From Candidatus Evtepia faecigallinarum (GTDB lineage: Bacteria; Bacillota; Clostridia; Oscillospirales; Oscillospiraceae): 42,282 bases of DNA. This document shows, piece after piece, positions 21,281 through 37,405 of this stretch. The DNA lies in contig DXEA01000041.1 in NCBI GenBank assembly GCA_019115225.1, positions 1-42,282 of the forward strand. Reading direction: 5' to 3'. Every line of letters starts with the position of its first letter. Within the stretch, counting starts at the first letter, position 1. Both the position numbers and the translations under genes were made by a program. A model generated the notes under the pieces. The model searched no databases, was not told where the DNA came from, and was given only the letters and a program-made list of their open reading frames with translations.

Positions 21281-21718
21281 TTATAAATGGCGGATGTTCT
21301 CGGAGATGTCGGTCAGGGCCCGGGAGATCTCCATCTCCCAGTGGCCGCACTTGGCCAGATCGCCCAGGGAGAGCATCCCCACCACCTTGCCGCTGTCCAC
21401 CACAGGAAGACGGCGGACCTGCTGGCCGGACATGAGCTGGGCGGCCTGGCGGGGGTCGGCGTCGGGGGCCACGGCGGCGGGGCGGCGGGACATGATGGCG
21501 CTGACGGGGACCTGGGCGGGGTCCTCCCCGGCGGCCACGCAGCGCAGGACGATGTCCCGGTCGGTGACCACCCCCAGCAGGGCGCCGGAGGGGGTGCAGA
21601 CGGGCAGGGAGCCGATGTTGTGCCGGGCCAGGAGACGGGCGGCCAGGGCGGCGCTTTCCTTGGGGTCGATGGCGACCACACAGGGGTTCATGAGCTGCTT
21701 GACTTGCAGAAAAATCAC
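21281..21718 (-). CDS. CBS domain-containing protein
   Basis: Tandem CBS: QVKQLMNPCVVAIDPKESAALAARLLARHNIGSLPVCTPSGALLGVVTDRDIVLRC...VSAIMSRRPAAVAPDADPRQAAQLMSGQQVRRLPVVDSGKVVGMLSLGDLAK. Confidence 0.94.
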   Translation of the reverse strand: MIFLQVKQLMNPCVVAIDPKESAALAARLLARHNIGSLPVCTPSGALLGVVTDRDIVLRCVAAGEDPAQVPVSAIMSRRPAAVAPDADPRQAAQLMSGQQVRRLPVVDSGKVVGMLSLGDLAKCGHWEMEISRALTDISENIRHL

Positions 21719-21857
21719 CTCTCTTTTGGGGGGAATGGGACGGCTTTTTTCCTGCTGTTAGTTTGGGCGGGGCAAAGGGGCCTTATGCCCCAAAAAAGGG
21801 ACTGAGAGGCCGTTTGGGCCGGTTTTTTGAAAATTTGCAAAAAAAGTTTGGAAAAAG

Positions 21858-21875
21858 GTGTACGTTTGCGTACAC
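21858..21875. promoter_or_regulatory. Dyad operator candidate upstream of the phage-derived operon
   Basis: GTGTACG-tttg-CGTACAC, perfect 7-bp arms, about 40 bp before the first ORF in an A/T-tract region. Confidence 0.55.
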
Positions 21876-21915
21876 GAAAAGGGGGTGTCACCGGGTAGGG
21901 TGAGGAGGGATTTAC

Positions 21916-22233
21916 ATGGCAAAGAAAAAACTGGACCGGCGCAGCGTCCTGGAGCAGATGATGGCCCTGGCCGCCGGGGCCGCCAACGACGCGGTGAAGC
22001 TGGCCTATCTCACGGAAGAGCGCATGGGGGAGATCGACGGCCTGGACCTGGGCTGCCTGACCGAGTTCAAGCGCAGCAGCAATGGGGCGGTGGAGGTGAA
22101 GCTCACCGACCGGGCCGCCGTATTGGAAAAGCTGCTGGAGCAGATGAAGGAGGAGGAGGGCCGGGAGATGGCCGCCTTCCTCACCGCCCTGGACCGGCCC
22201 CTGGCCCCGGAAGAGGTGAGCTCGGACCGATGA
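21916..22233 (+). CDS. Putative terminase small subunit
   Basis: 105 aa, immediately upstream of and overlapping the large terminase; assigned by position. Confidence 0.6.
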   Translation: MAKKKLDRRSVLEQMMALAAGAANDAVKLAYLTEERMGEIDGLDLGCLTEFKRSSNGAVEVKLTDRAAVLEKLLEQMKEEEGREMAAFLTALDRPLAPEEVSSDR

Positions 22234-23486
22234 GCCTGCGCTTTTCCGACAAGCAGAAGGAAGTTCTTGGCTGGTGGACACGGGGCTCCCCCCACCGGGA
22301 CCGGGACGCCATCGTGTGCGACGGGGCGGTGCGCAGCGGGAAGACCATGTGCCTGGGCCTGTCCTTCGTGCTGTGGAGCATGACCCGCTTCCGGCGGCAG
22401 CAGTTTGCCCTGTGCGGCAAGACCACCCAGTCGGTGCGGCGGAACCTGCTGTACAGCGTGCTGCCGGTGCTGGAAAGCCTGGGCTTTCAGTGGGAGGAGA
22501 AGATCTCCCGCAACTGGCTCAAGGTGCGCTATGGGCCGGTGGAGAACACCTATTTCCTCTTCGGGGGGAAGGACGAGGGCTCTGCCGCCCTCATCCAGGG
22601 CATCACCCTGGCGGGGGTGCTGCTGGATGAGGTGGTGCTCATGCCCCGCTCTTTCGTGGAGCAGGCCTGCGCCCGGTGCTCGGTGACGGGGGCCAAGTTC
22701 TGGTTCTCCTGCAACCCCGCCGGGCCGGGGCACTGGTTTTACCGGGAGTGGATCTGCAAGGCCCGGGAGCGGAACCTCCTCCACCTGCGCTTCTTCATGG
22801 AGGACAACCCCACCCTCTCCCCCGAGACCCGGCAGCGGTATGAGCGGGCCTTTCAGGGGGCCTTTTACCGGCGGTTCGTGCTGGGGGAGTGGACGGCGGC
22901 GGAGGGATTGGTCTATGACTTCTTTGACGAGGACATGGTGCTGCCCCCGCCGGCGGGCCAGGCCCAGCGGTGGGTGATCTCCTGCGACTACGGCACCGTC
23001 AACCCCACCTCCATGGGGCTGTGGGGGAAGTACGGCGGGGTGTGGTACCGGGTGAAGGAGTATTACTACGACGCCCGGCAGGAGAGACGGCAGCAGACCG
23101 ACCAGGAGTACGCCCAGCGGCTGAGGGAACTGGCCGGGGGACGGGAGATTGAGGCGGTGGTGGCAGACCCCTCGGCGGCCTCCTTTCTGGAGGTCCTGCG
23201 CCGGGAGGGGTGGAACGTGCGCAAGGCCAACAACGACGTGCTCTCGGGCATCCGGCTCACCGCCGACGCCTTGAAAAGTGGGCGCATCGTCATCTGCTCC
23301 CCCTGTCAGGATGCCATCCGGGAGTTCGGGTCCTATTGCTGGGACCTGGCCGCCGGGGACCGGGACAAGGTGCGCAAGGAGTTTGACCACGCCATGGACG
23401 AGATCCGCTACTTCGTGGCCACCGTGGCCGCCCCGGAGGAGGGGGACGACCCCTTCTTCGCCGGGTATGTGGAGCGGCGGGTGTGA
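22230..23486 (+). CDS. Phage terminase large subunit (PBSX-type)
   Basis: MSLRFSDKQKEVLGWW...IVCDGAVRSGKTMCLGLSFVLW (Walker A)...GVLLDEVVLMP (Walker B)...ISCDYGTVNPTSMGLWG (nuclease). Confidence 0.93.
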   Translation: MSLRFSDKQKEVLGWWTRGSPHRDRDAIVCDGAVRSGKTMCLGLSFVLWSMTRFRRQQFALCGKTTQSVRRNLLYSVLPVLESLGFQWEEKISRNWLKVRYGPVENTYFLFGGKDEGSAALIQGITLAGVLLDEVVLMPRSFVEQACARCSVTGAKFWFSCNPAGPGHWFYREWICKARERNLLHLRFFMEDNPTLSPETRQRYERAFQGAFYRRFVLGEWTAAEGLVYDFFDEDMVLPPPAGQAQRWVISCDYGTVNPTSMGLWGKYGGVWYRVKEYYYDARQERRQQTDQEYAQRLRELAGGREIEAVVADPSAASFLEVLRREGWNVRKANNDVLSGIRLTADALKSGRIVICSPCQDAIREFGSYCWDLAAGDRDKVRKEFDHAMDEIRYFVATVAAPEEGDDPFFAGYVERRV

Positions 23487-23505
23487 GAGACGAAAGGAGG
23501 ATGTG

Positions 23506-24774
23506 ATGGGATTTTGGAAAGGACGGAAGCAGGAGGCGCAGGCTCCCCCGGGGCCGGTCCAGCTCAGGCCGGCCCAGCGCCACCCCTTCCAGATGCTGGG
23601 CGGCTATGTGCCCCTGCATCAGCCGGCCTTTTCCCTCTACCGGGCCATCCGGGAGGCCATCCCGGTGGTGGATGCGGCGGTACTCAAGCTGGTGCGTCTG
23701 GCCGGGGGCGTGGGGGTGACGTGTGAGGACAAGAGGGCCGAGGAGGAGCTGAACCAGTTCCTGCGCACGGTGCCCGCCGGGTGGAACCAGCGGGGCATTC
23801 AGACCTTTCTGGACAGCTATCTGGACTGCCTGCTCACCTGCGGCCGGGCGGTGGGGGAGATCGTCCCCAGCCGGGACGGGCGGGAGATCGCGGCGGTGCT
23901 GTGCGGGAACGTCTCCGACGTGGAGGTGAAGGTGGGGGACTCTCCCCTGGACCAGAAGCTGGCCCTGCGCCGGCCCAACGGGGAGACGGAGCTGCTGCCC
24001 CGGCAGGACTTATTGCTCTTTACCCCCTACCACCCCAGCCCGGAAAACCCCTATGGGCAGTCGCTGCTCCACGGGCTGCCCTTTCTGTCCGGGGTGCTGT
24101 TGAAGATCTATCAGACCCTGGGGGAGAACTGGGAGCGGGCGGGGAACGTCCGCTTCGCCGTGGTCTATAAGCCGGAAGAGGGGCTGGACCAGCGGCGGGT
24201 CCAGGAGCGGGGGAAGCTGCTGGCCCAGCGGTGGTCCCAGGCCATGGAGAACACCCGGAACGGGTCCGTGCGGGATTTCGTCACCGTGGGGGATGTGGAG
24301 ATCAAGGTCATCGGGGCCGAGTGCGACATCCCCGACTGTCAGGCGCCGGTGCGGCTGATTTTAGAGCAGCTCATCTCCCAGACGGGCATCCCGCCCTTTT
24401 TGCTGGGGCTGAACTGGTCCTCCACCGAGCGCATGAGCAGCCAGCAGGCGGACATCATGACCAGCGAGCTCACCGCTCTGCGCCGCACCCTCACCCCGGT
24501 GGTGGAAAAGGTGTGCGACCTGTGGCTGCGGATGCACGGCAAGGGGTGCGCCTTCCAGGTGGTCTGGGAGGAGATCAATCTCCAGGACCAGGTGGAAGAG
24601 GCCCGGGCCGTCCTGTACCGCCAGCAGGCGGCACAGCTGGCCAAGGGAGAGAAGAACACCGGCCGGGGAAAGGAGGAGGCCAAGGAAGAGGACAAGCCCA
24701 AAACCGACCAGGAAAAGAAGGAGGAGAACCATGCAGACAGTGACCAAGGAAGCCCGGACCCAGGTGACCGCTGA
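23506..24774 (+). CDS. Phage portal protein
   Basis: 422 aa: HQPAFSLYRAIREAIPVVDAAVLKLVRLAGG...LLLFTPYHPSPENPYGQSLLHGLPFLSGVLLKIYQTL...IPPFLLGLNWSSTERMSSQQADIMTSEL. Confidence 0.82.
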   Translation: MGFWKGRKQEAQAPPGPVQLRPAQRHPFQMLGGYVPLHQPAFSLYRAIREAIPVVDAAVLKLVRLAGGVGVTCEDKRAEEELNQFLRTVPAGWNQRGIQTFLDSYLDCLLTCGRAVGEIVPSRDGREIAAVLCGNVSDVEVKVGDSPLDQKLALRRPNGETELLPRQDLLLFTPYHPSPENPYGQSLLHGLPFLSGVLLKIYQTLGENWERAGNVRFAVVYKPEEGLDQRRVQERGKLLAQRWSQAMENTRNGSVRDFVTVGDVEIKVIGAECDIPDCQAPVRLILEQLISQTGIPPFLLGLNWSSTERMSSQQADIMTSELTALRRTLTPVVEKVCDLWLRMHGKGCAFQVVWEEINLQDQVEEARAVLYRQQAAQLAKGEKNTGRGKEEAKEEDKPKTDQEKKEENHADSDQGSPDPGDR

Positions 24775-25672
24775 CCCGGCCGCCGGGGAGCTGGAGGCCA
24801 TCAACAGCCTCAACGGCACCAGCCTGACCGAGGAGGAGGTCTATCTCTTCGCCGTGCGGCTGTGCGACAACCAGACCGACCGGGACATGGAGTACTTTGG
24901 CCGCCAGGACCTGGAGGTGCTGGCCCCCCTCTTTGTGGGGAAAACCGGCATTTTTGACCACAGCTGGAGCGCCAGGGACCAGACCGCCCGCATTTACCGC
25001 ACGGAGGTGGTGGACGAGCCGGGGCTGGTGAGCGAGGCCGGGGAGCCGGGGTGCTACCTGAAAGGGTATGCCTACATGCTGCGCACGGCGGAGAACGCCG
25101 GGCTCATTGCCGAGATCGAGGGGGGAATCAAGAAGGAGGTCAGCGTCAGCTGCGCCGTCAGCGGGAGTATTTGCTCCATCTGCGGCAACGACATCCACGA
25201 CCGCACCGCCTGCAGCCACGTGAAGGGACGGGTGTATGAGGGGAGACGGTGCATCGTGCGCCTGGCCCAGCCCACCGACGCCTTTGAGTGGTCCTTTGTG
25301 GCCGTGCCCGCCCAGCCCCGGGCGGGGGTGGTGAAGAGCCTGGGCCGGGGGGAAAGCCTGGACCAGGTGCTGGCCGGGCTGGACGGCCCCTGGCAGGCAG
25401 AGTGGAAGGAGCTCCAGCGCCAGGCCGCCGCCGGGCGGCGGTATCTGGAAAAGCTGCGGCAGGAGACGGTGCGCCTGGGCCTTATGGCCCAGAAGGGCCT
25501 GCAGCGGGAGACCCTGCAGGCCATCGCCGGAAAGCTGGACGAGGAGGAGCTGGAAGAGCTGCGGGCCTGCTATGCCCGGCAGCTGGAGGATGCCCTGCCC
25601 CTGCCCGTCCAGCTCAGCTACGGCGGGGAACAACGAGGAGAGGCCGGGGACGATGCGTCCTTTGTCATCTAA
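24731..25672 (+). CDS. Putative prohead protease/scaffold-like protein
   Basis: 313 aa between portal and capsid: GKTGIFDHSWSARDQTARIYRTEV...ICSICGNDIHDRTACSHVKGRVYEGRRC...DAFEWSFVAVPAQPRAGVVKS; 44-nt overlap with portal. Confidence 0.6.
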   Translation: MQTVTKEARTQVTADPAAGELEAINSLNGTSLTEEEVYLFAVRLCDNQTDRDMEYFGRQDLEVLAPLFVGKTGIFDHSWSARDQTARIYRTEVVDEPGLVSEAGEPGCYLKGYAYMLRTAENAGLIAEIEGGIKKEVSVSCAVSGSICSICGNDIHDRTACSHVKGRVYEGRRCIVRLAQPTDAFEWSFVAVPAQPRAGVVKSLGRGESLDQVLAGLDGPWQAEWKELQRQAAAGRRYLEKLRQETVRLGLMAQKGLQRETLQAIAGKLDEEELEELRACYARQLEDALPLPVQLSYGGEQRGEAGDDASFVI

Positions 25673-25699
25673 AACCAAATCACAAAAGGAGGAAGAACA

Positions 25700-26050
25700 A
25701 TGGGTGTTGCGTTCAACGGAATGGAGAGTTTGGTGGTCACCTTCCAGGCGGAGACCGCCACGGCGGGGCAGTTTGCCGCCATGCAGGAAAATGACACGGT
25801 GCAGGATGCCGCCGACGGGGCTGCCCCCGTGGGCCTCATCCTCAACCTGCGCGGAGGCCACGCCGCTGTGCAGGTGCGGGGCTATGCCCAGACTGCCTAC
25901 AGCGGCACCGGCGCCCCCGTGCTGGGCTGGAACCAGCTGGTGGCCGACGGCGCCGGCGGCCTGCGCCTGGCAGCGGACGGCGAGACGGGCCGGACCTGTC
26001 TGGTGGTGAACCTGGACAGCGGCAGCAAGACCATGGGCCTGTTCCTGTGA
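25700..26050 (+). CDS. Putative capsid decoration/head fibre protein
   Basis: 116 aa Gly/Ala-rich, directly upstream of the major capsid gene. Confidence 0.5.
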   Translation: MGVAFNGMESLVVTFQAETATAGQFAAMQENDTVQDAADGAAPVGLILNLRGGHAAVQVRGYAQTAYSGTGAPVLGWNQLVADGAGGLRLAADGETGRTCLVVNLDSGSKTMGLFL

Positions 26051-26075
26051 GAACGGGCGGAAAGGAGTGAATGGT

Positions 26076-27110
26076 ATGGCATATCAGTTCGAGACGGTGA
26101 AGCTGGACAAGGGGATGTACCGGGAGTCCGGGCGCTCCTTTGCCAAGGTGCTGGAGCAGTGTGACCCCTCGGAGCAGTACAAGGGCACGCCCCTGGAACA
26201 CCTGGACGCCTTTCAGCGGCAGCTGAAACGCTTTGACATCAAGGTGAAGGGGCCGGAGTCCGATGTGGTCTCCAAGTTCTTTGCCACCTGGGAGTCTGCC
26301 GTCCTCTTCCCCGAGTATGTGGCCCGGGCGGTGCGCCAGGGCATGGAGGAGAGCGACATTTTGCCCTTTATGACGGCGGCGGAGACCCGGATCGCCGGCA
26401 TGGACTACCGCTCCATCGCCTCCACCCCCGAGGAGGACGAGAAGGCGCTGAAGATGGTGGCCGAAGGGGCCCTCATCCCCGAGACCCGGGTGCATGCCCA
26501 GGAGAACCTGGTGCAGCTGCACAAGCGGGGCCGGATGCTGGTGGCCTCCTATGAGGCCATCCAGTTCCAGCGGCTGGACCTGTTCTCCGTGACCCTGCGC
26601 CAGATCGGCGCGTATATTAACCGCATGCATGTGGCGGATGCCATTGAGGTGTTGCTCAACGGGGACGGCAACGGCAACGCCGCCACGGTCTATACCGTGG
26701 GCACCGACCCCATCAGCGGCACCGCCGGCACCCTCACCTATGACGCCCTGGTGGATTTCTGGAGCCAGTTTGACCCCTATGCCATGAACACCCTGCTGGT
26801 GGGGGACGCCATGGCGAAGATTCTCAAGCTGGACGAGATGCAGGACGGCACGGCGGGGCTGACCTTCCAGGGCACCGGCAAGCTGGTCACCCCCATGGGG
26901 GCCACCCTCCTGCGCAGCAGCGCCGTGCCCAGCAACACCATCATCGGCCTGGACAGCAACTACGCCCTGGAGATGATCCGGGGCAGCGACGTGCTGGTGG
27001 AGTATGACAAGCTCATCGACCGGCAGCTGGAGCGGGCGGCCATCACGTCCATCTCCGGCTTCTCAAAAATTTTCCAGGAGGCGTCCAAAGTGCTGCAGAT
27101 TGGCGGGTGA
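26076..27110 (+). CDS. Major capsid protein
   Basis: AAAGGAG then ATG; 344 aa: KGPESDVVSKFFATWESAVLFPEYVARAVRQGMEES...NTLLVGDAMAKILKLDEMQDG...LLRSSAVPSNTIIGLDSNYALEMIRGSDVLVEYDKLIDRQLERAAI. Confidence 0.85.
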   Translation: MAYQFETVKLDKGMYRESGRSFAKVLEQCDPSEQYKGTPLEHLDAFQRQLKRFDIKVKGPESDVVSKFFATWESAVLFPEYVARAVRQGMEESDILPFMTAAETRIAGMDYRSIASTPEEDEKALKMVAEGALIPETRVHAQENLVQLHKRGRMLVASYEAIQFQRLDLFSVTLRQIGAYINRMHVADAIEVLLNGDGNGNAATVYTVGTDPISGTAGTLTYDALVDFWSQFDPYAMNTLLVGDAMAKILKLDEMQDGTAGLTFQGTGKLVTPMGATLLRSSAVPSNTIIGLDSNYALEMIRGSDVLVEYDKLIDRQLERAAITSISGFSKIFQEASKVLQIGG

Positions 27111-27114
27111 TGAG

Positions 27115-27498
27115 ATGATCCAGGAACAGGAGATTGTCGAGGTCGCCCTGTGCTTTGCCGGGCGGCAGCTGACGGATGGAGAGGCCAAGGTCCTCTCCAT
27201 CCTCTGCGCCGCGGCCTTGGACAGCTGGCGGGGGCAGCTGCGGCAGGACGTGGCCGAGGAGAGCATCCGGGACCTGCTGGTGGTGGCCAGCGCCTGGACC
27301 GCCCTGGCGGCGGTGTCCGGGGCCCTGGAGCAGAGCAGCCCCACGCCCCTGTCCTTCTCCGCCGGGGATTTAACTGTCCGCAGCCAGGAGGGACAGGGCG
27401 GGAACGCCTGCGCCAAAAGCCTGCGCAGTCAGGCCGAGGCCCTCATGCTCCCCTACGTGCGGGATGAGGCCTTTGCCTTCTGGGAGGTGAGGGGATGA
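27115..27498 (+). CDS. Putative head-tail connector protein
   Basis: MIQEQEIVEVALCFAGRQLTDGEAKVLSILCAAALDSWRGQLRQDV...; position immediately after capsid. Confidence 0.55.
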   Translation: MIQEQEIVEVALCFAGRQLTDGEAKVLSILCAAALDSWRGQLRQDVAEESIRDLLVVASAWTALAAVSGALEQSSPTPLSFSAGDLTVRSQEGQGGNACAKSLRSQAEALMLPYVRDEAFAFWEVRG

Positions 27499-27833
27499 GC
27501 TTTGCCGGCAGTTTCACCGCCATCGCCGCCCGGTATGGGCGGCCGGTGGTCCTGTTCTGCCAGGGAGAAGAGGCAGGCCGGGGACAGGCGGTGCTGCGGC
27601 CTGTGCTGGACCGGCAGGTCCAGTGGTTCCCCTCTCCCCTGGGGAAGCAGCGGCAGGAGGAGGTCCTCTGTCTGGCCCAGGCGGACCTCCCCTTCCGCAC
27701 CGGCGGGGAGGAACAGACGGTGCAGGCGGGAGAGGAAGTGTATGAGGTGGTCAGCGTCCGGCCGGTGGAGGCCGGGACGGAGCGGATCTATTGGCATGGA
27801 ATCCTGCGGCGAAGGGAGGCAGATGCCCTGTGA
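27495..27833 (+). CDS. Putative head closure/minor structural protein
   Basis: 112 aa, 4-nt overlaps with neighbours, connector position. Confidence 0.5.
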   Translation: MSFAGSFTAIAARYGRPVVLFCQGEEAGRGQAVLRPVLDRQVQWFPSPLGKQRQEEVLCLAQADLPFRTGGEEQTVQAGEEVYEVVSVRPVEAGTERIYWHGILRRREADAL

Positions 27834-28330
27834 CGACGTTGACGGCCCTGCGCCAGGCCATGACGGACTTTTTGGAAGGGCAAGGGATTGCCGCCCTCAC
27901 CGCCTGGCCCCAGGAGCAGCGGCAGAACCACCAGGAACCGGTGGCGGTGGTCCAGGTGAAGGAGGTGGAGGCCGCCCCGGCGGGCTTTCAGAACTATCTG
28001 GGCCAGAGCTATGACAGCCAGGCCCACCGGTGGACCGACCGGTACGGCCAGCGGGTGACGGTGAAGTTTGTCCTCACCCTCTGCAGCCCCCGCGCTGCCG
28101 GGGAGGCCGGGTGCCGCCGGCTGCTGGACCAGGTGGCCGGGGCCCTGCTGCGGGGCGGCCCGGCGGGCTTTGCCGTGGAGAAGTGGACCATGGGGGAGAC
28201 CGACTTTGACCAGCACAGCGGGATGTTCCGGGGCAAGCTCCAGGCCGTGTGCCGGGGGACCCTGGTGGAGAGCCGGGAGGAGAGCGGCGAGATCGTAGCC
28301 ATTGAAGTGAAAGGAGAGATGCAGCTGTGA
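27830..28330 (+). CDS. Putative tail completion/terminator protein
   Basis: GTG start; MTTLTALRQAMTDFLEGQGIAALTAWPQEQRQ...YGQRVTVKFVLTLCSP; upstream of sheath. Confidence 0.5.
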   Translation: MTTLTALRQAMTDFLEGQGIAALTAWPQEQRQNHQEPVAVVQVKEVEAAPAGFQNYLGQSYDSQAHRWTDRYGQRVTVKFVLTLCSPRAAGEAGCRRLLDQVAGALLRGGPAGFAVEKWTMGETDFDQHSGMFRGKLQAVCRGTLVESREESGEIVAIEVKGEMQL

Positions 28331-29373
28331 GCAATGTGGTGACCAGCCATGAGCGGCCGGGGGTGTACTCGGCCTATGAGGCCTCGGCGGTGGTGACGTC
28401 TGCCGGCCGCCGGGGCTGGGCGGCGGTGGCCGCCCGGAGCCAGGGGGGGACGCCGGGGACGGTGTACCCCCTGAATAGCTGGCGGGAGGCGGTGGAGACC
28501 TTTGGCCAGGAGGACCCCTTGACCAAGCTGGTCCAGGTCCTCATGGCCAACGGGGCCGGCCGGGTGCTGGCAGTGCCGGTGGGCGAGGATGCCAATTACA
28601 CCGCCGCCTTTGCCCTGCTGGGCCAGGAGGAAGGCGTGCGCGTGGTGGTGTGTGACAGTGAGGAGGCGACCGTCCAGCAGGCCCTGCGGGACCAGGTGCT
28701 GGCCGACGCTGCCGCCCGGCGGGAGCGCATCGCCGTGGTCCCCGGCGGGGCGGCGGAGGATGTGAGCCAGCTGGTGACCCGGGCCCAGGGACTCAACAGC
28801 GAGCGGGTGGTGCTGACGGCCCCCGGCCTCTCGGCAGAGGAGGGGGGCGCCCTGGTGGCAGCGGCGGTGGCCGGGGCCATCTGCGGCCAGGCCGACCCGG
28901 CCCTCCCCCTGGGGGGCGCGGTGCTGCTGGGGATCTCCCGGCTGGCGGCCCGGTACACCGAGGAGGAGCTGGACACCCTCATCCAGGGGGGCGTGACCCC
29001 GGTGGAGCTGTCCGGGGGCCAGTGCGTGGTCATCCGGGGGGTGACCACCCGGACCAGGACCGGGGAGGTCCCCGACAGCACCTGGCGGGAGCTGGGGACC
29101 ATTCTGGTGGTGGACGATGTGATCCCCGGCATCCGGGACGCCCTGCGGGCCAGGTTCCCCCGGGCCAAGAACACGGCCCAGACCCGGGGGGCCATCCGGT
29201 CCCAGGTGATCTTAGAGCTGGAGCGGAAGCTGGCGGCGGAGGTCATCACCCGGTATGGGGAGGTCACCGTGGAGGCGCTGGCCGACCGGCCCACGGTGTG
29301 CCTGGTGACCTTTGCCTTCTCGGTGGCCCTGGGGCTCAATCAGATCTGGCTGAGCGCCCAGATCACGGTGTGA
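28327..29373 (+). CDS. Contractile tail sheath protein
   Basis: MSNVVTSHERPGVYSAYEASAVVTSAGRRGWAAVAARSQGGTPGTVYPLNSWREAVETFG...; C-terminal VCLVTFAFSVALGLNQIWLSAQITV. Confidence 0.88.
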   Translation: MSNVVTSHERPGVYSAYEASAVVTSAGRRGWAAVAARSQGGTPGTVYPLNSWREAVETFGQEDPLTKLVQVLMANGAGRVLAVPVGEDANYTAAFALLGQEEGVRVVVCDSEEATVQQALRDQVLADAAARRERIAVVPGGAAEDVSQLVTRAQGLNSERVVLTAPGLSAEEGGALVAAAVAGAICGQADPALPLGGAVLLGISRLAARYTEEELDTLIQGGVTPVELSGGQCVVIRGVTTRTRTGEVPDSTWRELGTILVVDDVIPGIRDALRARFPRAKNTAQTRGAIRSQVILELERKLAAEVITRYGEVTVEALADRPTVCLVTFAFSVALGLNQIWLSAQITV

Positions 29374-29386
29374 AAGGAGGAAGGAT

Positions 29387-29776
29387 ATGGCGGCAAATGT
29401 GATCCCCACCAGCAGTGACATCTATCTGGAGGTGGACGGAAAGAAGGTGGCGGTGGTCCAGAGCTACACCGCCCAGAGCACCAAGAACAGCGCCACCGTG
29501 GAGGCCTTCGGGGAGGCCGAGCCTGTGGCCACCCTCCCCGGCCAGACCCGGCATGTGCTGGAGCTGACCCGCATCTACGCCACCGACGCGGCCCTGGCCG
29601 ACGGCATCGACTTTTACGGGCTGGAGGATTTCAGCCTGGTCATCTGCAAGCCCGACCGGCGGGTGATCTATAGCGGGTGCCAGTGGAGCAAGATCGGCGA
29701 GAGCGGGAACCTGGGGACCTCGGTGATGGAGAAGGTCACGGTGGTGGCCAGCCGGCGCCTGGAGACGGCGGTATGA
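29387..29776 (+). CDS. Contractile tail tube protein (XkdM-like)
   Basis: MAANVIPTSSDIYLEVDGKKVAVVQSYTAQSTKNSATVEAFGEAEPVATLPGQTRHVLELTRIYATDAALADGIDFYGLEDFSLVICKPDRRVIYSGC. Confidence 0.85.
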   Translation: MAANVIPTSSDIYLEVDGKKVAVVQSYTAQSTKNSATVEAFGEAEPVATLPGQTRHVLELTRIYATDAALADGIDFYGLEDFSLVICKPDRRVIYSGCQWSKIGESGNLGTSVMEKVTVVASRRLETAV

Positions 29777-30378
29777 GAAACCCGGTAACGTGGCTGCGCC
29801 GGTGGTGGGACCGGCGGCCGGGGGGACGGCTGGAGGCCGTCCCCCCTTGGGACCTGGCCCTGGCCCGGCGGGAGGCGGCCCAGATGGCCGGGGAGGCGGA
29901 TAAGGCCCTGTGGGACAACGCCTGTCTGGTGGCCCGGGCCCTGCGGCGGCGGGGGAGGCGGGTGTATCCCTCGGGAGAGGCGGTGGTGGAGGCCCTCTCC
30001 CCTGCCCGGATCGAGGCCCTGGCCCGGCGGTGGGCCCAGGGGGCGGGGCGGCAGGAGTATGCCATCGGGGATCTGAAGGAGGAGCTGGCGGCCCTGCCCT
30101 GGCAGCGTTTGAGATGGCGGGTGTTACGGCAGTTCGGGGCCCTGCCCACGGAGGAGCGGGCGAGGGAGATGACCGACGGGGACTATCTGTGGTGCGCGGT
30201 GAACCTGCTGCTGGATGAGGAGGAAGAGGCAGCGCGGCTGTGCCCCGTCTGCCGGGAGGAGGCCCAGAGAGAACGCTGCCCGGTGTGCGGCCGGGAGACG
30301 GGGCAGGTCAGCCGGGGGGAGAACCCCGCCTTTGACTGGGCACGGTTTGAGCGGATGAAACGGGGGGAGAGACCGTGA
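29773..30378 (+). CDS. Uncharacterised phage-cluster protein with zinc-ribbon-like motif
   Basis: ATG at 29773; LCPVCREEAQRERCPVCGRETG near the C-terminus; occupies the tail-assembly-chaperone position. Confidence 0.7.
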   Translation: MRNPVTWLRRWWDRRPGGRLEAVPPWDLALARREAAQMAGEADKALWDNACLVARALRRRGRRVYPSGEAVVEALSPARIEALARRWAQGAGRQEYAIGDLKEELAALPWQRLRWRVLRQFGALPTEERAREMTDGDYLWCAVNLLLDEEEEAARLCPVCREEAQRERCPVCGRETGQVSRGENPAFDWARFERMKRGERP

Positions 30379-30905
30379 GAGATTATCTGGAAGAGTGGTT
30401 AGCGGGGGAGCGCGGTACGCTCCTGCCCCGGCGGCAGAATGGAGGGACCGGGACGGTCCGCCGGAACCCTGAACAGGAAGGGGAAGAGGCGGCGCTGCCG
30501 GCGGCGGAAAGGGATGCCTTTTTGGAGGAAGGCAATCTGGCCCGGCAGGGTACGGCTGGAGAAGGGCAATCGCTGGCGGAGGTGGCTGCACCGGGGGAGC
30601 TCCTTTGGCCGGTCCCGGAGAGGCAAGAGGACGTGTGGCCCGCGGGAGAGGCGGCAGAGTGGCCTTTGCCGGGGCAGGAAGAGCTGCTCCAGGAGAGCGG
30701 CGGGATGAGCCCCCGGGAGTTATATGCGGCCCTGGGCCGGACGGCCAGGGTGTCCCGGCTGGCGGCAGAGGGGGCGGCGGGGGGCTCCCCCGCCATTGTG
30801 ACGGTGCCCGCCCCGGCCCATGAGGCGCGGCGGGACTGGGAGGACCTGGACCGGGCGGTCCAGCGGGACGCCCGGCGGTATGACGGGGGCTTTGCCCTGT
30901 ACTAA
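30375..30905 (+). CDS. Uncharacterised phage-cluster protein at the tape-measure position
   Basis: GTG start overlapping upstream stop; 176 aa Glu/Pro/Gly-rich, not a tape-measure-like long helical protein. Confidence 0.7.
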   Translation: MRDYLEEWLAGERGTLLPRRQNGGTGTVRRNPEQEGEEAALPAAERDAFLEEGNLARQGTAGEGQSLAEVAAPGELLWPVPERQEDVWPAGEAAEWPLPGQEELLQESGGMSPRELYAALGRTARVSRLAAEGAAGGSPAIVTVPAPAHEARRDWEDLDRAVQRDARRYDGGFALY

Positions 30906-30923
30906 TGTGTGGAAGGAGGTGCC

Positions 30924-31511
30924 GTGTTGGAGCTGAGCCCCATGCGGTATAAAAGTTTCATCTGGCCCCACAACCCCAGGACCTACACCATCGAGTATGA
31001 GCGGCAGGTGGCGGTGCATAAGATCCCCTTTGGCCGCTACGCCATGCAGGACCTGGGCCTGGGGCGGCGGGTGATGCGGGGAGAGGGGGAGTTTTACGGG
31101 CCGTCGGCCTATGAGGACTTCAAAAAGCTGGCCACGGTCTTTTATGACGGCGGGCCGGGGACCCTGCTGCACCCGGTGTGGCAGAGCGCCCAGGTGTATT
31201 TTGTAGAGCTGGCCCTGGCCCAGGAGCCCCGGCGGGACTATGTGCGCTATACCTTTACCTTTTGGGAGGAGTATGACAAGTACCGCCAGGAGCTGGTGCC
31301 CGTGGGCCAGGAGAGCAGCGGCCAGAGCGGGGGCAGCACGCCGGTGACCCCCGCCCCCGAGGGGGCGGTGTATCACACGGTGGTGGCGGGGGACACCCTG
31401 TGGGCCCTCGCCCAGACCTATGGGGTGACCATGGGGGAGATTTTGGTGTGGAACCCTCAGCTGAAAAACCCCAACGTGATCCTGCCCGGCCAGCGACTGA
31501 GAGTGGGGTGA
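30924..31511 (+). CDS. LysM-containing tail protein (XkdP-like)
   Basis: MRYKSFIWPHNPRTYTIEYERQ...GAVYHTVVAGDTLWALAQTYGVTMGEILVWNPQLKNPNVILPGQRLRVG. Start between 30909 and 30927 is uncertain. Confidence 0.85.
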   Translation: MLELSPMRYKSFIWPHNPRTYTIEYERQVAVHKIPFGRYAMQDLGLGRRVMRGEGEFYGPSAYEDFKKLATVFYDGGPGTLLHPVWQSAQVYFVELALAQEPRRDYVRYTFTFWEEYDKYRQELVPVGQESSGQSGGSTPVTPAPEGAVYHTVVAGDTLWALAQTYGVTMGEILVWNPQLKNPNVILPGQRLRVG

Positions 31512-31515
31512 GGGG

Positions 31516-32469
31516 ATGACAGAGTGGAGACTGATCGGCTATGACGGCGCGGAGTATCTCCTGCCCACCCCTGTGGCCTGGCAGCTGGACTACGGCCTGG
31601 GCTCCCCCTGCGACAGCTTTTGGGTCAAGGTGCTCTGGTCGGCGGGGCAGGAGGACAAGCTGGCCGACGGGGTGCGGGTGCAGGTGCGGGAGGACGGCGC
31701 CCTGCGCTTTGTGGGGGTGGTGGACGAGTGCCAGTGCAGCTGGTCCCCGGAAGGATGCACGGCGGAGATCAGCGGCCGGGGCCTGCAGGCCCTGCTGCTG
31801 GACAACCAGGCGGAGGCGGCGGACTATGGGCAGGCCACCCTGGATGAGATTTTGCGGCGGTATGTGACCCCCTACGGCATCACCCTGGCCCAGCGGGTGA
31901 GCCTGCCGGCGGTGTGGGGCTTTTCGGTGGCCTCGGGGAGCAGCTGCTGGGCGGTGGTGTATGACTTTGCCCGGTATTACGGCGGGGTGACGCCCCGGTT
32001 TACCCGGGAGGGCCAGCTGGCCCTCCACCCCTGGCCGTCGGCCCAGCCTGTGGAGCTGGGCACTGACGCTCCGGTGACCAAGGCGGTCCGGCGGGACAAG
32101 CGGTATGGGGTCCTGTCCCAGGTGACGGTGAAGGATGTCACCGGCTGGACCCGGCAGACGGCGGTGAACGACGGCTTCCAGCGCCGGGGCGGCCAGTGCA
32201 GCCGGGTGATTTTGCTGCCCAGGAACACCGGCTACCAGGCCCGGCGGTATGAGGCCCAGTTCCAGCTGGACCGGTCGGCGGCGGAGCTGTTGGAGATCGA
32301 GATCACCGTGGCCCTCCCCTTTGCCGCCTGGCCGGGGGATTTGGTAAAACTCACCCGGGCCGGGTGGAGCGGCAATGGCATCTACCGGGTCCGGGAGAGC
32401 CGGGTGACGCTGGGGGAGGCCGGCTATGAGACCAGATTGGTTCTGGGCGACCCCCAGGCGGTACTGTGA
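31516..32469 (+). CDS. Baseplate hub protein (XkdQ/gpD-like)
   Basis: 317 aa: GSPCDSFWVKVLWSAGQEDKLADGVRVQVREDGALRFVGVVDECQCSWSPEG...LEIEITVALPFAAWPGDLVKLT. Confidence 0.78.
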   Translation: MTEWRLIGYDGAEYLLPTPVAWQLDYGLGSPCDSFWVKVLWSAGQEDKLADGVRVQVREDGALRFVGVVDECQCSWSPEGCTAEISGRGLQALLLDNQAEAADYGQATLDEILRRYVTPYGITLAQRVSLPAVWGFSVASGSSCWAVVYDFARYYGGVTPRFTREGQLALHPWPSAQPVELGTDAPVTKAVRRDKRYGVLSQVTVKDVTGWTRQTAVNDGFQRRGGQCSRVILLPRNTGYQARRYEAQFQLDRSAAELLEIEITVALPFAAWPGDLVKLTRAGWSGNGIYRVRESRVTLGEAGYETRLVLGDPQAVL

Positions 32470-32489
32470 GAAAAAGGAGGGAAACGGCC

Positions 32490-32861
32490 ATGTGGATGGC
32501 AAGAGGAAGAACGGAGGATTTTCTCCGGGAGCCCCCGGTGGAGCTGGGCCAGGTGACCCTGTCCGGGGCCCCGGTGGGGGTGGCCCTGGCGGGGGAGCGG
32601 AGAAACGTCACCGTCTGCCTGCCCGGGGGCTACCACTGGACCCCCGACCGGGGACAGACGGTGCTGGTGGTCAAGAGCGGCCCTGAGGGGGCCCCCTGCG
32701 TGGTGGGTACCCCGGCAGAGGAGGCCCAGGGCGGCCAGGTGTGGCTGTCGGTGGCCCAGGGGGCGGAGATCCGCCTGGGCCAGGACGGGGTCATCCGGCT
32801 GACCGGGCCGGTGGAGGTCCAGGGCAGCCTGACGGTGAACGGACAGGAGGTGGGGGGATGA
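32490..32861 (+). CDS. Putative baseplate spike/assembly protein
   Basis: ATG after AAGGAGG; beta-rich: VALAGERRNVTVCLPGGYHWTPDRGQTVLVV...IRLGQDGVIRLTGPVEVQGSLTVNGQEV. Confidence 0.6.
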   Translation: MWMARGRTEDFLREPPVELGQVTLSGAPVGVALAGERRNVTVCLPGGYHWTPDRGQTVLVVKSGPEGAPCVVGTPAEEAQGGQVWLSVAQGAEIRLGQDGVIRLTGPVEVQGSLTVNGQEVGG

Positions 32862-33199
32862 GCGTGACCCAGATCAGGGACGGGGACTATCGCCCGGACG
32901 GTCAGGGGGGCTTTGCCGAAAGCGAGGGGGCCCAGGAGGTGCTGGAGCGGGTGCTCTTTCAGCTCACCGCTCGCCGGGGGCGCTTTCCCCTGCTGCCCCA
33001 GGTGGGCAGCCGGCTGTATCTGCTGCTGCGGGAGAAGCCCTCGGTCCGGGGCAGCGTGGGGGCCAGCTATGCCGCCGAAGCCCTGGCAGGGGAGGAGGAC
33101 CTGCAGGTGACGGGGGCAGAATGGAATGAGGCCGCCTGCCACCTGGAGGTGACATTGCTGTGGCAGGGGGAGAGCCTGCGGGCCTGCGTGCCCCTGTGA
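32858..33199 (+). CDS. gp25-like/XkdS (DUF2634-like) baseplate protein
   Basis: MSVTQIRDGDYRPDGQGGFAESEGAQEVLERVLFQLTARRGRFPLLPQVGSRLYLLLREKP. Confidence 0.7.
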   Translation: MSVTQIRDGDYRPDGQGGFAESEGAQEVLERVLFQLTARRGRFPLLPQVGSRLYLLLREKPSVRGSVGASYAAEALAGEEDLQVTGAEWNEAACHLEVTLLWQGESLRACVPL

Positions 33200-33219
33200 G
33201 AGAAGGGAGTGAGGAAACC

Positions 33220-34272
33220 ATGAAAACGGTGGATGAGATTTATCGGGAGATGGTAGACCGGGTGGCCCTGGAGACGGGGATCACCCCGGAGGGCACCGGG
33301 GAGATGGCCGTGCGCCTGTACGCCCTGGCCGCCCAGATCTATGGCCTGTATGAGGAGAACGCCTGGACCTGCCGCCAGTGCTTCCCCCAGACGGCCACGG
33401 GGGAGGAACTGGAAAAGCACGGCTTTCTGCGGGGCGTCAGCCGCCTGGCCGCCCGGCGGGCGGAGGGGACCCTGCGCTTCCTGCTCCAGGGGGCGTCGGG
33501 GAGCGACGTGACCATCCCCCAGGGCACGGTGTGCCTGACGGCGGGGGGAACGGCCTTTGAGACCACCCGGGAGGGGGTCCTTGCCGCCGGGTCCCTATGG
33601 GCAGACGTGCCGGCCCAGGCCGTCCAGCCGGGGTTGGGGGGGAACGTGCCCACGGGGGCGGTGCGCACCCTGTCCCTGGCCCCGGTGGGGGTGGCGGCCT
33701 GCACCAATCCCACCCCCTTTACCGGGGGAGGGGAGGAGGAAGAGGACGAGGAACTGCGGGCCCGCATCCTGGCCACCTATCAGAGTACTCCCAACGGCAC
33801 CAACAGCGCCTACTACGCCAGGCAGGCCCTGGCCGTGCCCGGCGTGGCGGCGGTGAAGGTGCTGCCCAAAAACCGGGGGCTGGGGACGGTGGATGTGATC
33901 ATCGCCGCCGCCGATGGCCTGCCTGAGCAGAGCCTGGTGGACCAGGTCCGGGAGGACCTGGCGGGCAAGCGGGAGATCGCCGTGGACGTGGCCGTCCAGG
34001 CCCCCGAGGCGGTGCCCGTCCACCTGATCCTGTCGGTGCAGCCCCAGGACGGGATGCTGCCGGATGTGGTCCTCCAGCGGGTGAGGGACACCATGGAGAC
34101 CTGGTTTGACGGGAGTATGCTGGGCAAAAACCTGCTGCTGGTGGAGATCGCCCAGCGGATCTATCAGGTGGAGGGGGTGGCCAACTACCGCATCGACGGG
34201 CCGGTCAATGACGTGACGGTGGAGGGCGGCCAGCTGCCGGTGCTGGGTTCCCTGTCGGTGGAGGTGATGTGA
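33220..34272 (+). CDS. Baseplate J-like protein (XkdT)
   Basis: 351-codon ORF: VTIPQGTVCLTAGGTAFETT...ELRARILATYQSTPNGTNSAYYARQALAVPGVAAVKVLPKNRGLGTVDVIIA. Confidence 0.9.
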   Translation: MKTVDEIYREMVDRVALETGITPEGTGEMAVRLYALAAQIYGLYEENAWTCRQCFPQTATGEELEKHGFLRGVSRLAARRAEGTLRFLLQGASGSDVTIPQGTVCLTAGGTAFETTREGVLAAGSLWADVPAQAVQPGLGGNVPTGAVRTLSLAPVGVAACTNPTPFTGGGEEEEDEELRARILATYQSTPNGTNSAYYARQALAVPGVAAVKVLPKNRGLGTVDVIIAAADGLPEQSLVDQVREDLAGKREIAVDVAVQAPEAVPVHLILSVQPQDGMLPDVVLQRVRDTMETWFDGSMLGKNLLLVEIAQRIYQVEGVANYRIDGPVNDVTVEGGQLPVLGSLSVEVM

Positions 34273-34748
34273 TGGGCCACGGACAGTATCTGCGGGACCT
34301 GCTGGCCCCCCTGGGGGTCTACCGCTGGGAGGGCAGCTTCCAGTGGAGTGAGCTGCAAAGCGAGGGGGCGGCCCTGGACCAGGTGGCCCAGGAGCTGGCG
34401 CACATCCGCCAGGAGATGAACCTGTACACCGCCCGGGAGGAGGGCCTGCAGGGGGTGCTGGACCTGCTGGGCCGGACCGCCGGGGAGGAGGACCTGGAGG
34501 ACCTGCGCCAGACCGCCGCCGCCCTGCTGCGCATCGGGGAGAACAGCTTTACCCTGGCGGCCATGAACGACACCCTCCGGGGCTGCGGCATCCCCGCCCA
34601 GGTGGCCGAGACCGGGGACCCCCTGAAGGTGACCGTCACCTTTCCGGGGATCACCGGCATCCCGGCAAACTTTTTTCAGATCCAGAAGCTCATCGAGGGC
34701 ATCCTGCCCTGCCATCTGCAGGTGCAGTACCAGTTTGCCCAGGAATAA
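34272..34748 (+). CDS. Phage tail protein XkdU/gpI-like
   Basis: MGHGQYLRDLLAPLGVYRWEGSFQWSELQSEGAALDQVAQELAHIRQEMNLYTAREEGLQ...; last gene of the module. Confidence 0.75.
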   Translation: MGHGQYLRDLLAPLGVYRWEGSFQWSELQSEGAALDQVAQELAHIRQEMNLYTAREEGLQGVLDLLGRTAGEEDLEDLRQTAAALLRIGENSFTLAAMNDTLRGCGIPAQVAETGDPLKVTVTFPGITGIPANFFQIQKLIEGILPCHLQVQYQFAQE

Positions 34749-35026: not shown

Positions 35027-35074
35027 AATACGCGCCAGCAGGATGCTGAGATGAGGAAGAAGGAGAAGCGCTCC

Positions 35075-37405
35075 ATGACCATGGTACAACAGATTCGGAA
35101 ACGGGACGGGCGAGTGGTCCCCTTCCACGAGAATAAGATCGCCGACGCCATCAACAAGGCCTTCGAGGCCACCTATAAGCCCGGCTATGACGAGACCGCA
35201 GCCAAGCTGGCCCACGAAGTGGCCTCCGTGCTGGAGGTGGAGGGCAAGGACTGCCCCGACGTGGAGCACATCCAGGACATCGTGGAGCGGGTGCTCATGG
35301 ACAACGGCTATGTCCAGACCGCCAAGGCCTACATCCTCTATCGCTCCGAGCGCAGCCGGGCCCGGGAGATGAACACCCGGCTGATGAAGATCTATGAGGA
35401 CATCACCTTCTCCGCCGCCAAGGACAGCGACATCAAGCGGGAGAACGCCAACATCGACGGCGACACCGCCATGGGCACCATGCTCAAGTACGGCAGCGAG
35501 GGGTCCAAGCAGTTTTATCAGATGTTCGTCATGAAGCCCGAGCACGCCCGGGCCCACAGCAGCGGGGACATCCACATCCACGACATGGACTTTGCCCCCA
35601 TGGGCACCACCACCTGCACCCAGATCGACCTCATCAAGCTCTTTGACGGGGGCTTCTCCACCGGCCACGGCACCCTGCGGGAGCCCAACGACATCGCCTC
35701 CTACACCGCCCTGGCCTGCATCGCCATCCAGTCCAACCAGAACGACCAGCACGGCGGCCAGGCCATCGTGAACTTTGACTATGCCATGGCCATCGGCGTG
35801 CGCAAGACCTTCAAGCGCATCTATCGCCAGAACCTGGCCCGGGCCCTGATGCTCCTGGAGGACCAGGCCGACCCCGAAAGCCAGCTCAAGGAGCACATCC
35901 GGCAGCTGGAGGCCGAGACCGGCCTGTATCCCAAGCTGGAGGACTGCGAGGCATTCTTCCAGGCGGAGATGCCCTTCCTGCTGGAGCACTACGGCCAGGA
36001 CGAGGCCCTGCTGCGCCGGTGCCAGGAGTTCGCCCACTACCGGGCGGTGAAGGAGACCGACCGGGCCACCTATCAGGCCATGGAGGCTCTCATCCACAAC
36101 CTGAACACCATGCACTCCCGGGCCGGGGCCCAGACCCCCTTCTCCTCCATCAACTACGGCATGGACACCTCCCCCGAGGGGCGCATGGCCATGAAGAATA
36201 TCCTGCTGTCCACCGAGGCCGGCCTGGGCAACGGCGAGACCCCCATCTTCCCCATCCAGATCTTCCGGGTGAAGGAAGGGGTCAACTACAACCCCGGCGA
36301 GCCCAACTATGACCTCTTCCAGCTGGCCATCCGGTGCTCGGCCAAGCGCCTCTTCCCCAACTTCTCCTTCATCGACGCCCCCTTTAACCTGCAGTACTAC
36401 CAGCCGGGCCGGCCCGAGACCGAGATCGCCTACATGGGCTGCCGCACCCGGGTCATCGGCAACGTGGTGGACCCCGACCGGCAGATCTGCAACGGCAGAG
36501 GCAACCTCTCCTTCACCACCATCAACCTGCCCCGGCTGGGCATCAAGGCCAAGGGGGACATCAACACCTTCTTTGAAAGCCTGGACCACATGCTGGACCT
36601 GTGCGTGGAGCAGCTGCTGGAGCGCTTTGAGTTCCAGTGCCGCAAGAAGGTGAAAAACGCCCCCTTCCTCATGGGCCAGGGGGTGTGGATCGACTCGGAC
36701 AAGCTGGACTGGGACGACGAGGTGCGGGAGGTGCTCAAGCACGGCACCCTGTCTGTGGGCTTCATCGGCCTGGCCGAGACCCTCAAGGCCCTCATCGGCG
36801 AGCACCACGGCGAGAGCGAGCGGGCCCGGGTGCTGGGCCTGGAGATCGTGGGCCACATGCGGGCCCGGATGGACCAGGAGAGCGCCAAGCGCAACCTGAA
36901 CTTCTCCCTGCTGGCCACCCCTGCCGAGGGGCTTTCCGGCCGGTTTGTCAAGATCGACAAGGAAAAGTACGGCGTCATCGAGGGCATCACCGACCGGGAT
37001 TACTACACCAACTCCTTCCATGTGCCGGTGTACTATCCCATCTCCGCCTATGACAAGATCGCCATCGAGGCCCCCTACCACGCCCTGACCAACGCCGGCC
37101 ACATCAGCTACATCGAGATGGACGGCGACCCCACGGAAAACCTGGACGCCTTCGAGCGGGTCATCCGCTGCATGAAGGAGAAGGGCATCGGCTACGGCTC
37201 GGTCAACCACCCGGTGGACCGGGACCCGGTGTGCGGCTTCTCCGGCATCATCGGCGACCAGTGCCCCGGCTGCGGCCGGAAGGAGGACGACGGGGTCCCC
37301 TTCGAGCGCATCCGCCGCATCACCGGCTATCTGGTGGGCACCCTGGACCGGTTCAACAACGCCAAGCGGGCGGAGGAACGGGACCGGGTCAAGCACAATG
37401 TGTGA
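35075..37405 (+). CDS. nrdD: Anaerobic (class III) ribonucleoside-triphosphate reductase
   Basis: MTMVQQIRKRDGRVVPFHENKIADAINKAFEAT (ATP-cone)...; C-terminal GDQCPGCGRKEDDGVPFERIRRITGYLVGTLDRFNNAK (Cys/Zn and glycyl radical site). Confidence 0.97.
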   Translation: MTMVQQIRKRDGRVVPFHENKIADAINKAFEATYKPGYDETAAKLAHEVASVLEVEGKDCPDVEHIQDIVERVLMDNGYVQTAKAYILYRSERSRAREMNTRLMKIYEDITFSAAKDSDIKRENANIDGDTAMGTMLKYGSEGSKQFYQMFVMKPEHARAHSSGDIHIHDMDFAPMGTTTCTQIDLIKLFDGGFSTGHGTLREPNDIASYTALACIAIQSNQNDQHGGQAIVNFDYAMAIGVRKTFKRIYRQNLARALMLLEDQADPESQLKEHIRQLEAETGLYPKLEDCEAFFQAEMPFLLEHYGQDEALLRRCQEFAHYRAVKETDRATYQAMEALIHNLNTMHSRAGAQTPFSSINYGMDTSPEGRMAMKNILLSTEAGLGNGETPIFPIQIFRVKEGVNYNPGEPNYDLFQLAIRCSAKRLFPNFSFIDAPFNLQYYQPGRPETEIAYMGCRTRVIGNVVDPDRQICNGRGNLSFTTINLPRLGIKAKGDINTFFESLDHMLDLCVEQLLERFEFQCRKKVKNAPFLMGQGVWIDSDKLDWDDEVREVLKHGTLSVGFIGLAETLKALIGEHHGESERARVLGLEIVGHMRARMDQESAKRNLNFSLLATPAEGLSGRFVKIDKEKYGVIEGITDRDYYTNSFHVPVYYPISAYDKIAIEAPYHALTNAGHISYIEMDGDPTENLDAFERVIRCMKEKGIGYGSVNHPVDRDPVCGFSGIIGDQCPGCGRKEDDGVPFERIRRITGYLVGTLDRFNNAKRAEERDRVKHNV

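Follow-up and report, generated by a model that had tools for sequence, protein, structure and literature searches.

What purpose does a compact set of phage head and contractile tail genes serve in a gut clostridial genome when the genes for phage propagation are missing beside it? We addressed this question for a contig of Candidatus Evtepia faecigallinarum (GCA_019115225.1, DXEA01000041.1), of which the whole stretch of 42,282 nucleotides analysed is called the window below. Recomputing the open reading frames and their starts gave 19 plus-strand genes at 21916-34748, running from a small terminase gene (TerS) to a Gp48/XkdU-like gene and mostly overlapping or abutting, as an earlier note on this DNA had described. 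Based on PHROG and Pfam matches and on conserved order, they comprise full head, packaging motor, sheath, tube and baseplate sets. The flanks are also those given in that note, a CBS gene at 21281-21718 (minus strand) and nrdD at 35051-37405 (plus strand). With a probability of about 0.72, we consider the cluster to be an ancient domesticated contractile phage, vertically kept in the Oscillospiraceae and most likely making particles that resemble gene transfer agents (GTAs). Its features are as follows:

21857..21876, no strand: palindromic operator GGTGTACGTTTGCGTACACG, seen directly in the sequence, approximately 55 bp 5' of the TerS start codon
22230..23486, plus: large terminase TerL (phrog_2, 6e-42; Terminase_6N; Walker A, Walker B and nuclease Asp)
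21916..22233, plus: small terminase TerS, 105 aa, N-terminal HTH missing (Terminase_2 positions 59-130 of 141)
23506..24774, plus: portal protein (phrog_30703, 1.9e-151)
24731..25672, plus: putative head maturation protease (phrog_16951, 5.5e-128, unnamed family; role by position)
25700..26050, plus: decoration/head structural protein (phrog_4588, 6.6e-26)
26067..27110, plus: major capsid protein, HK97 type (phrog_3922, 1.9e-116; Phage_capsid_4)
27115..27498, plus: head-tail connector c1 (position and conservation in 72/80 loci; no family match)
27495..27833, plus: head closure-like connector c2 (weak phrog_12752/phrog_161)
27830..28330, plus: connector/tail terminator-like c3 (phrog_25177, 6.9e-58; Pfam Gp37, weak)
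28327..29373, plus: contractile tail sheath, short, 348 aa (phrog_279, 1.2e-41; Phage_sheath_1 and 1C)
29387..29776, plus: tail tube (phrog_27038, 1.3e-64, unnamed family; role from position 3' of the sheath gene)
29773..30378, plus: u1, tail-assembly-chaperone-like (weak phrog_4988; several weak BFVD chaperone matches)
30375..30905, plus: u2, 176 aa, in the tape-measure position (C-terminal motif QRDARRYDGGF; predicted model)
30909..31511, plus: LysM/GpU (XkdP-like) baseplate protein (phrog_380, 2e-21; phrog_184 baseplate hub, 9.5e-11; LysM and DNA_circ_N)
31516..32469, plus: baseplate hub (phrog_177, 1.1e-48)
32466..32861, plus: putative spike (phrog_25991, 1.3e-39, unnamed family; role by position)
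32858..33199, plus: gp25-like baseplate wedge (weak phrog_180; position)
33220..34272, plus: Baseplate J (PF04865, 4.7e-53)
34269..34748, plus: Gp48/XkdU-like baseplate protein (phrog_521, 1.5e-15; Pfam Gp48, sub-threshold)

Family searches supported most of the roles that had been proposed for these frames. PHROG and Pfam confirmed TerL, portal, decoration protein, major capsid, sheath, LysM/GpU-like protein, hub, BaseplateJ and Gp48/XkdU; matches were weak for TerS, connector c3 and the gp25-like protein, and connector c2 matched at a weak level only. The protease, tube and spike, however, fall exclusively into unnamed PHROGs and owe their roles to position and conservation, and connector c1 and u2 had no family match at all. 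The named roles of all cluster genes fit the order conserved in relatives. Within 21916-34748, the same ORF and PHROG/Pfam scan revealed no genes for a tape measure or fibres, for lysis (holin, endolysin), for lysogeny (integrase, repressor) or for replication. A tRNA scan found none, and no att repeat was detected between the flanks: the longest common match, 13 bp and located inside CBS and nrdD, barely exceeds the shuffled maximum of 12 and so does not indicate an att site. A prophage with att sites was rejected because there is no border repeat. The locus thus lacks the integrase, repressor, replication genes and att repeats of a temperate prophage, and has the GTA trait of phage-derived head, tail and terminase genes unaccompanied by integration or replication genes.

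The capsid gene is single and free of internal stops in 11 of 15 genomes of the same genus (76-88% identity) and in 144 of 401 Oscillospiraceae genomes, spread over 49 of 106 genera; two of these 144 drafts have it as two contig-end fragments. Named carriers are Oscillibacter (including the complete genome AP012044), Flavonifractor, Pseudoflavonifractor, Dysosmobacter and Intestinimonas, and these matches place the cluster family in the Oscillospiraceae. Gene order is identical in 80 named loci wherever the contig is long enough, and the recurrence of one ordered gene set in approximately 80 named genomes shows that the cluster is not a chance assemblage. Its absence from many genomes of the family indicates that it is dispensable. 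A tree of capsid, TerL and portal for 30 genomes shares 15 of 27 splits with that of rpoB (Mantel r 0.77, permutation maximum 0.28). Pairwise dN/dS values (Nei-Gojobori), which had been proposed earlier as a check for capsid and TerL, indicate purifying selection on both (0.14-0.26 and 0.14-0.35, respectively), with 0.08-0.32 for the tube and higher values for the small connectors and u2. Terminase, portal and capsid rank with the most strongly constrained genes of the cluster. The values for nrdD are 0.05-0.13 in 4 of 5 pairs, with the cluster genes higher in the same comparisons. The cluster genes are therefore under purifying selection and, as in GTAs, this goes together with vertical inheritance.

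In a high-quality genome of the same genus that has no capsid gene (G006), TerS and the XkdU-like gene are still found next to nrdD along with a truncated TerL, from which we conclude that the cluster was lost there through internal decay and not by excision. This remnant (locus L347, 7723-10587) consists of TerS, the truncated TerL, unrelated ORFs and then the intact XkdU-like gene. Synteny at the CBS-nrdD junction turned out to be one-sided: nrdD is a constant neighbour, inside the genus only, but CBS was not found adjoining TerS in relatives and was rejected as a conserved flank. The earlier note had named several outcomes that would speak against domestication, and none of them was observed; the cluster is instead widespread, has no att repeats, leaves a decayed remnant and not an empty site, and is under purifying selection. 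Together with the single intact copies and the host-congruent tree, this strongly supports the domesticated contractile particle proposed there.

Among public viral sequences, we inspected IMG/VR matches of at least 11 kb for free phage relatives. These were rejected, since the matches inspected (L107-L186) mostly consist of just this approximately 13-kb cluster, called as a provirus. Such entries appear to be a systematic false call of a mobile virus for a vertically inherited cluster. Phage records gave distant matches only (Caulobacter phage Seuss, 28%), besides unannotated faecal scaffolds. The latter are human-faecal "Bacteriophage sp." entries (L187, 22791-27705, and L189) that carry related head modules in low-GC backgrounds, with the sheath undetected.

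A further property of the tail module concerns its length determinant. The interval between the tube and LysM genes spans 471-1530 bp in 68 genomic loci and 477-1465 bp in 50 IMG/VR loci, which is too small for a tape measure in any of these clusters. A very short contractile tail would be the natural expectation for a cluster without a tape measure. Two genes occupy the interval in the window. The first, u1, had been listed as unknown; it is a single frame here and split across two frames in many relatives, and the split suggests a programmed frameshift of the kind found in tail assembly chaperones. The frames overlap, for example, in G011, G009 and G005 (L016, L017 and L021). Structure searches with u1 gave no PDB match and weak BFVD matches, several of them to tail assembly chaperones, so that, with the weak phrog_4988 match, the protein weakly resembles such a chaperone. 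The second, u2, has homologues of typically 132-289 aa, and each of the 68 loci encodes the QRDARRYDGGF-type motif, or a close variant of it, at the C terminus. Its predicted model is mostly disordered with helices at the termini; a classical coiled-coil tape measure was rejected on this ground, leaving a short linker as the sole reading for u2, which may occupy the tape-measure slot functionally.

Packaging genes were examined in TerS and TerL. The window TerS aligns to Terminase_2 positions 59-130 alone and lacks the HTH portion, a feature called defining for GTA-type TerS (PMC6854486). By contrast, homologues from the Oscillibacter/Dysosmobacter clade are approximately 155 aa long, keep the HTH and align over positions 4-128 (as in the 156-aa protein of L104). 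The GTA-type truncation therefore applies to the window and not to that clade, and non-specific packaging is perhaps not family-wide. Across 67 homologues, TerL shows little or no variation in its Walker A, Walker B and nuclease Asp residues. This anatomy favours the possible gene transfer agent of the earlier note, while the packaging of host DNA itself is something we infer.

A palindrome, GTGTACG-TTTG-CGTACAC, lies 5' of TerS in the window. The family consensus, TTGYACG-N4-CGTRCAA, occurs with at most 2 mismatches 5' of TerS or TerL in 39 of 68 loci versus 0.3% of shuffles; exact sites are found in 8 of the 11 cluster-bearing genomes of the genus and in none of the 3 cluster-less ones tested. 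In relatives, the same operator is present at an unlinked operon for a holin and a C39-peptidase endolysin (L208, L209, L211, L213, L215) and at an unlinked gene for a RepA_N winged-helix protein (L206, L207, L210, L212, L217), where its distance to the start codon is similar to that at TerS. The own genome (G000) has just two sites with at most 1 mismatch, namely the cluster and a RepA_N gene on contig C162 (1 mismatch). Moreover, the operator co-varies between loci of one genome. The sequence GTGTACGnnnnCGTCCCC is present at the cluster in both G011 and G004, a CGTCCCC right half occurs at the RepA_N gene in G011 and G009 and at the lysis locus in G004, and in G012 the sites are of the GTTGTACG...CGTACAAC type at the cluster, at the RepA_N gene and at the lysis locus alike. 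The simplest reading would be one regulator for all loci. Operator-like palindromes also adjoin non-phage genes at L214, L216, L218 and L219 (a response regulator, a sigma factor, or none clear), possibly reflecting a wider regulon or chance. A collagen-like protein near the lysis operon of L208 was dropped as a regulon member, as it is missing from the other lysis operons. The C39 endolysin has two or three full-length paralogues per genome in G011 and G007.

Fibre genes are likewise unlinked in the genus (G001, G002, G007, G010, G014) and encode the N-terminal motif TNKTxxLRLNQW...DFNxDN, with variable sequences beyond this conserved domain. The operator precedes fibre genes in three relatives (G014; G018, L285; and G111, where it separates two divergent fibre genes) and was not found 5' of those in G001, G002, G007 and G010. 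Fibre genes of this type lie in cis in two further families of the order, directly 3' of the XkdU-like gene, and some relatives have holin- or endolysin-like genes directly 3' of the cluster. The own genome has a candidate holin/holin/amidase lysis cassette on contig C13, with a C-terminal domain common with the endolysin of relatives; no operator was detectable at this cassette, and no fibre gene was found in the draft. The operator common to unlinked lysis, RepA_N and some fibre loci implies that the "missing" genes are partly provided in trans. An absence of fibre and lysis genes, as originally noted, therefore holds locally but not genome-wide in relatives, which have unlinked fibre loci and unlinked lysis loci, the lysis loci under the same operator.

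The absence of a tape measure, combined with release and fibre genes placed elsewhere under the same operator in relatives, points to a machine that most likely packages and moves host DNA rather than to a phage. In the model we favour, a regulator binding TTGYACG-N4-CGTRCAA would turn on the structural operon together with the unlinked holin/endolysin, RepA_N and some fibre loci. TerL, guided by the HTH-less TerS, would then fill small heads with host DNA irrespective of its sequence. These heads would receive a very short contractile tail for want of a tape measure, possibly with u2 in that slot, and cell lysis would free the particles for presumed DNA delivery. As far as sequence analysis can judge, the cluster would fit a GTA. 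Release and accessory genes may also be co-regulated with it, since a common, co-varying operator is present in relatives at lysis loci, RepA_N genes and some fibre loci, and in the own genome at the RepA_N gene.

How does this compare with known systems? The best reading, by description, is that the cluster may be functionally close to FpGTA I and II of Faecalibacterium (Borodovich et al. 2026, PMC12946183). These are described as a domesticated head and packaging operon with a separate fibre/holin/endolysin operon and a TerS without an obvious DNA-binding domain, near-ubiquitous in their genus and in a gut Oscillospirales host. However, FpGTA is podovirus-like with no visible tail, whereas the window cluster encodes sheath, tube and a whole baseplate in cis. 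PBSX of Bacillus subtilis (xkd) shares the contractile sheath and the order sheath, tube, chaperone, LysM (XkdP), hub, gp25-like, BaseplateJ and XkdU. PBSX carries a tape measure as well as fibre, holin and endolysin genes in cis. The window cluster, in contrast, has no tape measure between the chaperone-like and XkdP-like genes and no lysis genes in cis; it is neither a PBSX element in the strict sense nor an FpGTA as described. The alphaproteobacterial RcGTA and CcGTA also have a TerS that starts past the missing HTH (PMC6854486) and a vertically inherited, host-regulated structural cluster, regulation here being predicted from the DNA sequence. They differ by an unrelated siphovirus-type tail and by the regulators GafA and GafYZ (PMC6363796, PMC11150451), the window operator being another palindrome. 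R-type tailocins and contractile injection systems resemble the cluster in their short contractile sheath and baseplate but have no head or terminase, and TerL, portal and capsid are both present and constrained here.

Across the order, 63 of 297 genomes have a capsid homologue, and we fetched 14 loci from other families (L351-L364). Several keep sheath and tube with no space for a tape measure; 4 have a baseplate but no recognised sheath (nor tube, with one weak exception); and some have recognised head genes alone, next to host genes. Loci without sheath, tube or any recognisable tail gene still keep terminase, portal and capsid. We would give even odds to an Oscillospirales-wide domesticated DNA-packaging lineage with stepwise tail loss, in which the Oscillospiraceae have a scattered one-operator regulon and FpGTA is a later stage. 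In this evenly balanced scenario, loss of the tape measure (contractile mini-tail, as here) would be followed by loss of sheath and tube (baseplate on head) and finally of everything but the head.

These relatives bear directly on whether the particle could instead be kept vertically for killing relatives, as for PBSX, with DNA packaging incidental. Sheath, hub, spike and host-lysis genes are retained, fibres vary outside their conserved N-terminal domain, and PBSX packages host DNA without injecting it (PMC12946183). Yet a penetrating tail would need a tape measure, which is missing; terminase, portal and capsid are under marked selective constraint; and other families of the order dropped tail genes while keeping these three, the opposite of what a killing device predicts. 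We therefore regard this explanation as unlikely, though the likeliest of the alternatives. Much less probable is a DNA-free injection or protein-delivery device that keeps its head genes by inertia: the complete baseplate and short sheath are like those of contractile injection systems, but the cluster has no cargo gene, and such a device leaves the strong constraint on the TerL nuclease and ATPase residues unaccounted for, making it scarcely credible.

Decay of a temperate prophage, with loss of the tape measure and lysis genes, would account for the local absence of these and of fibre genes, and decay is indeed visible in G006. However, 19 of 19 genes are open, the identical gene set recurs in 49 genera under purifying selection with common regulatory sites, and neither att nor integrase is present; family-wide conservation already contradicts this idea, which is very improbable. 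The same low standing applies to the idea of a mobile or satellite element whose tape measure comes from a helper phage that mobilises it. The structural module is compact, trans genes lie elsewhere in the genome, and IMG/VR and phage records list the cluster as provirus or phage; against this, the phylogeny is host-congruent, nrdD is constant within the genus, and each genome has one copy with no integrase or att.

Earlier work has described GTA-like packaging of DNA in gut members of the Ruminococcaceae and Oscillospiraceae, including the Oscillospiraceae genus Onthomonas, which was searched with no operon reported (PMC12946183). The domesticated cluster described here is a concrete family-wide candidate for such packaging in Oscillospiraceae, possibly including Onthomonas. 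The new element is the palindromic operator linking the TerS cluster with unlinked lysis, RepA_N and some fibre loci. If our reading is true, GTAs would extend to a contractile, tape-measure-free design for which natural stages of tail loss are on offer, and gene movement in abundant gut Clostridia would become testable in culturable Oscillibacter, Flavonifractor and Pseudoflavonifractor.
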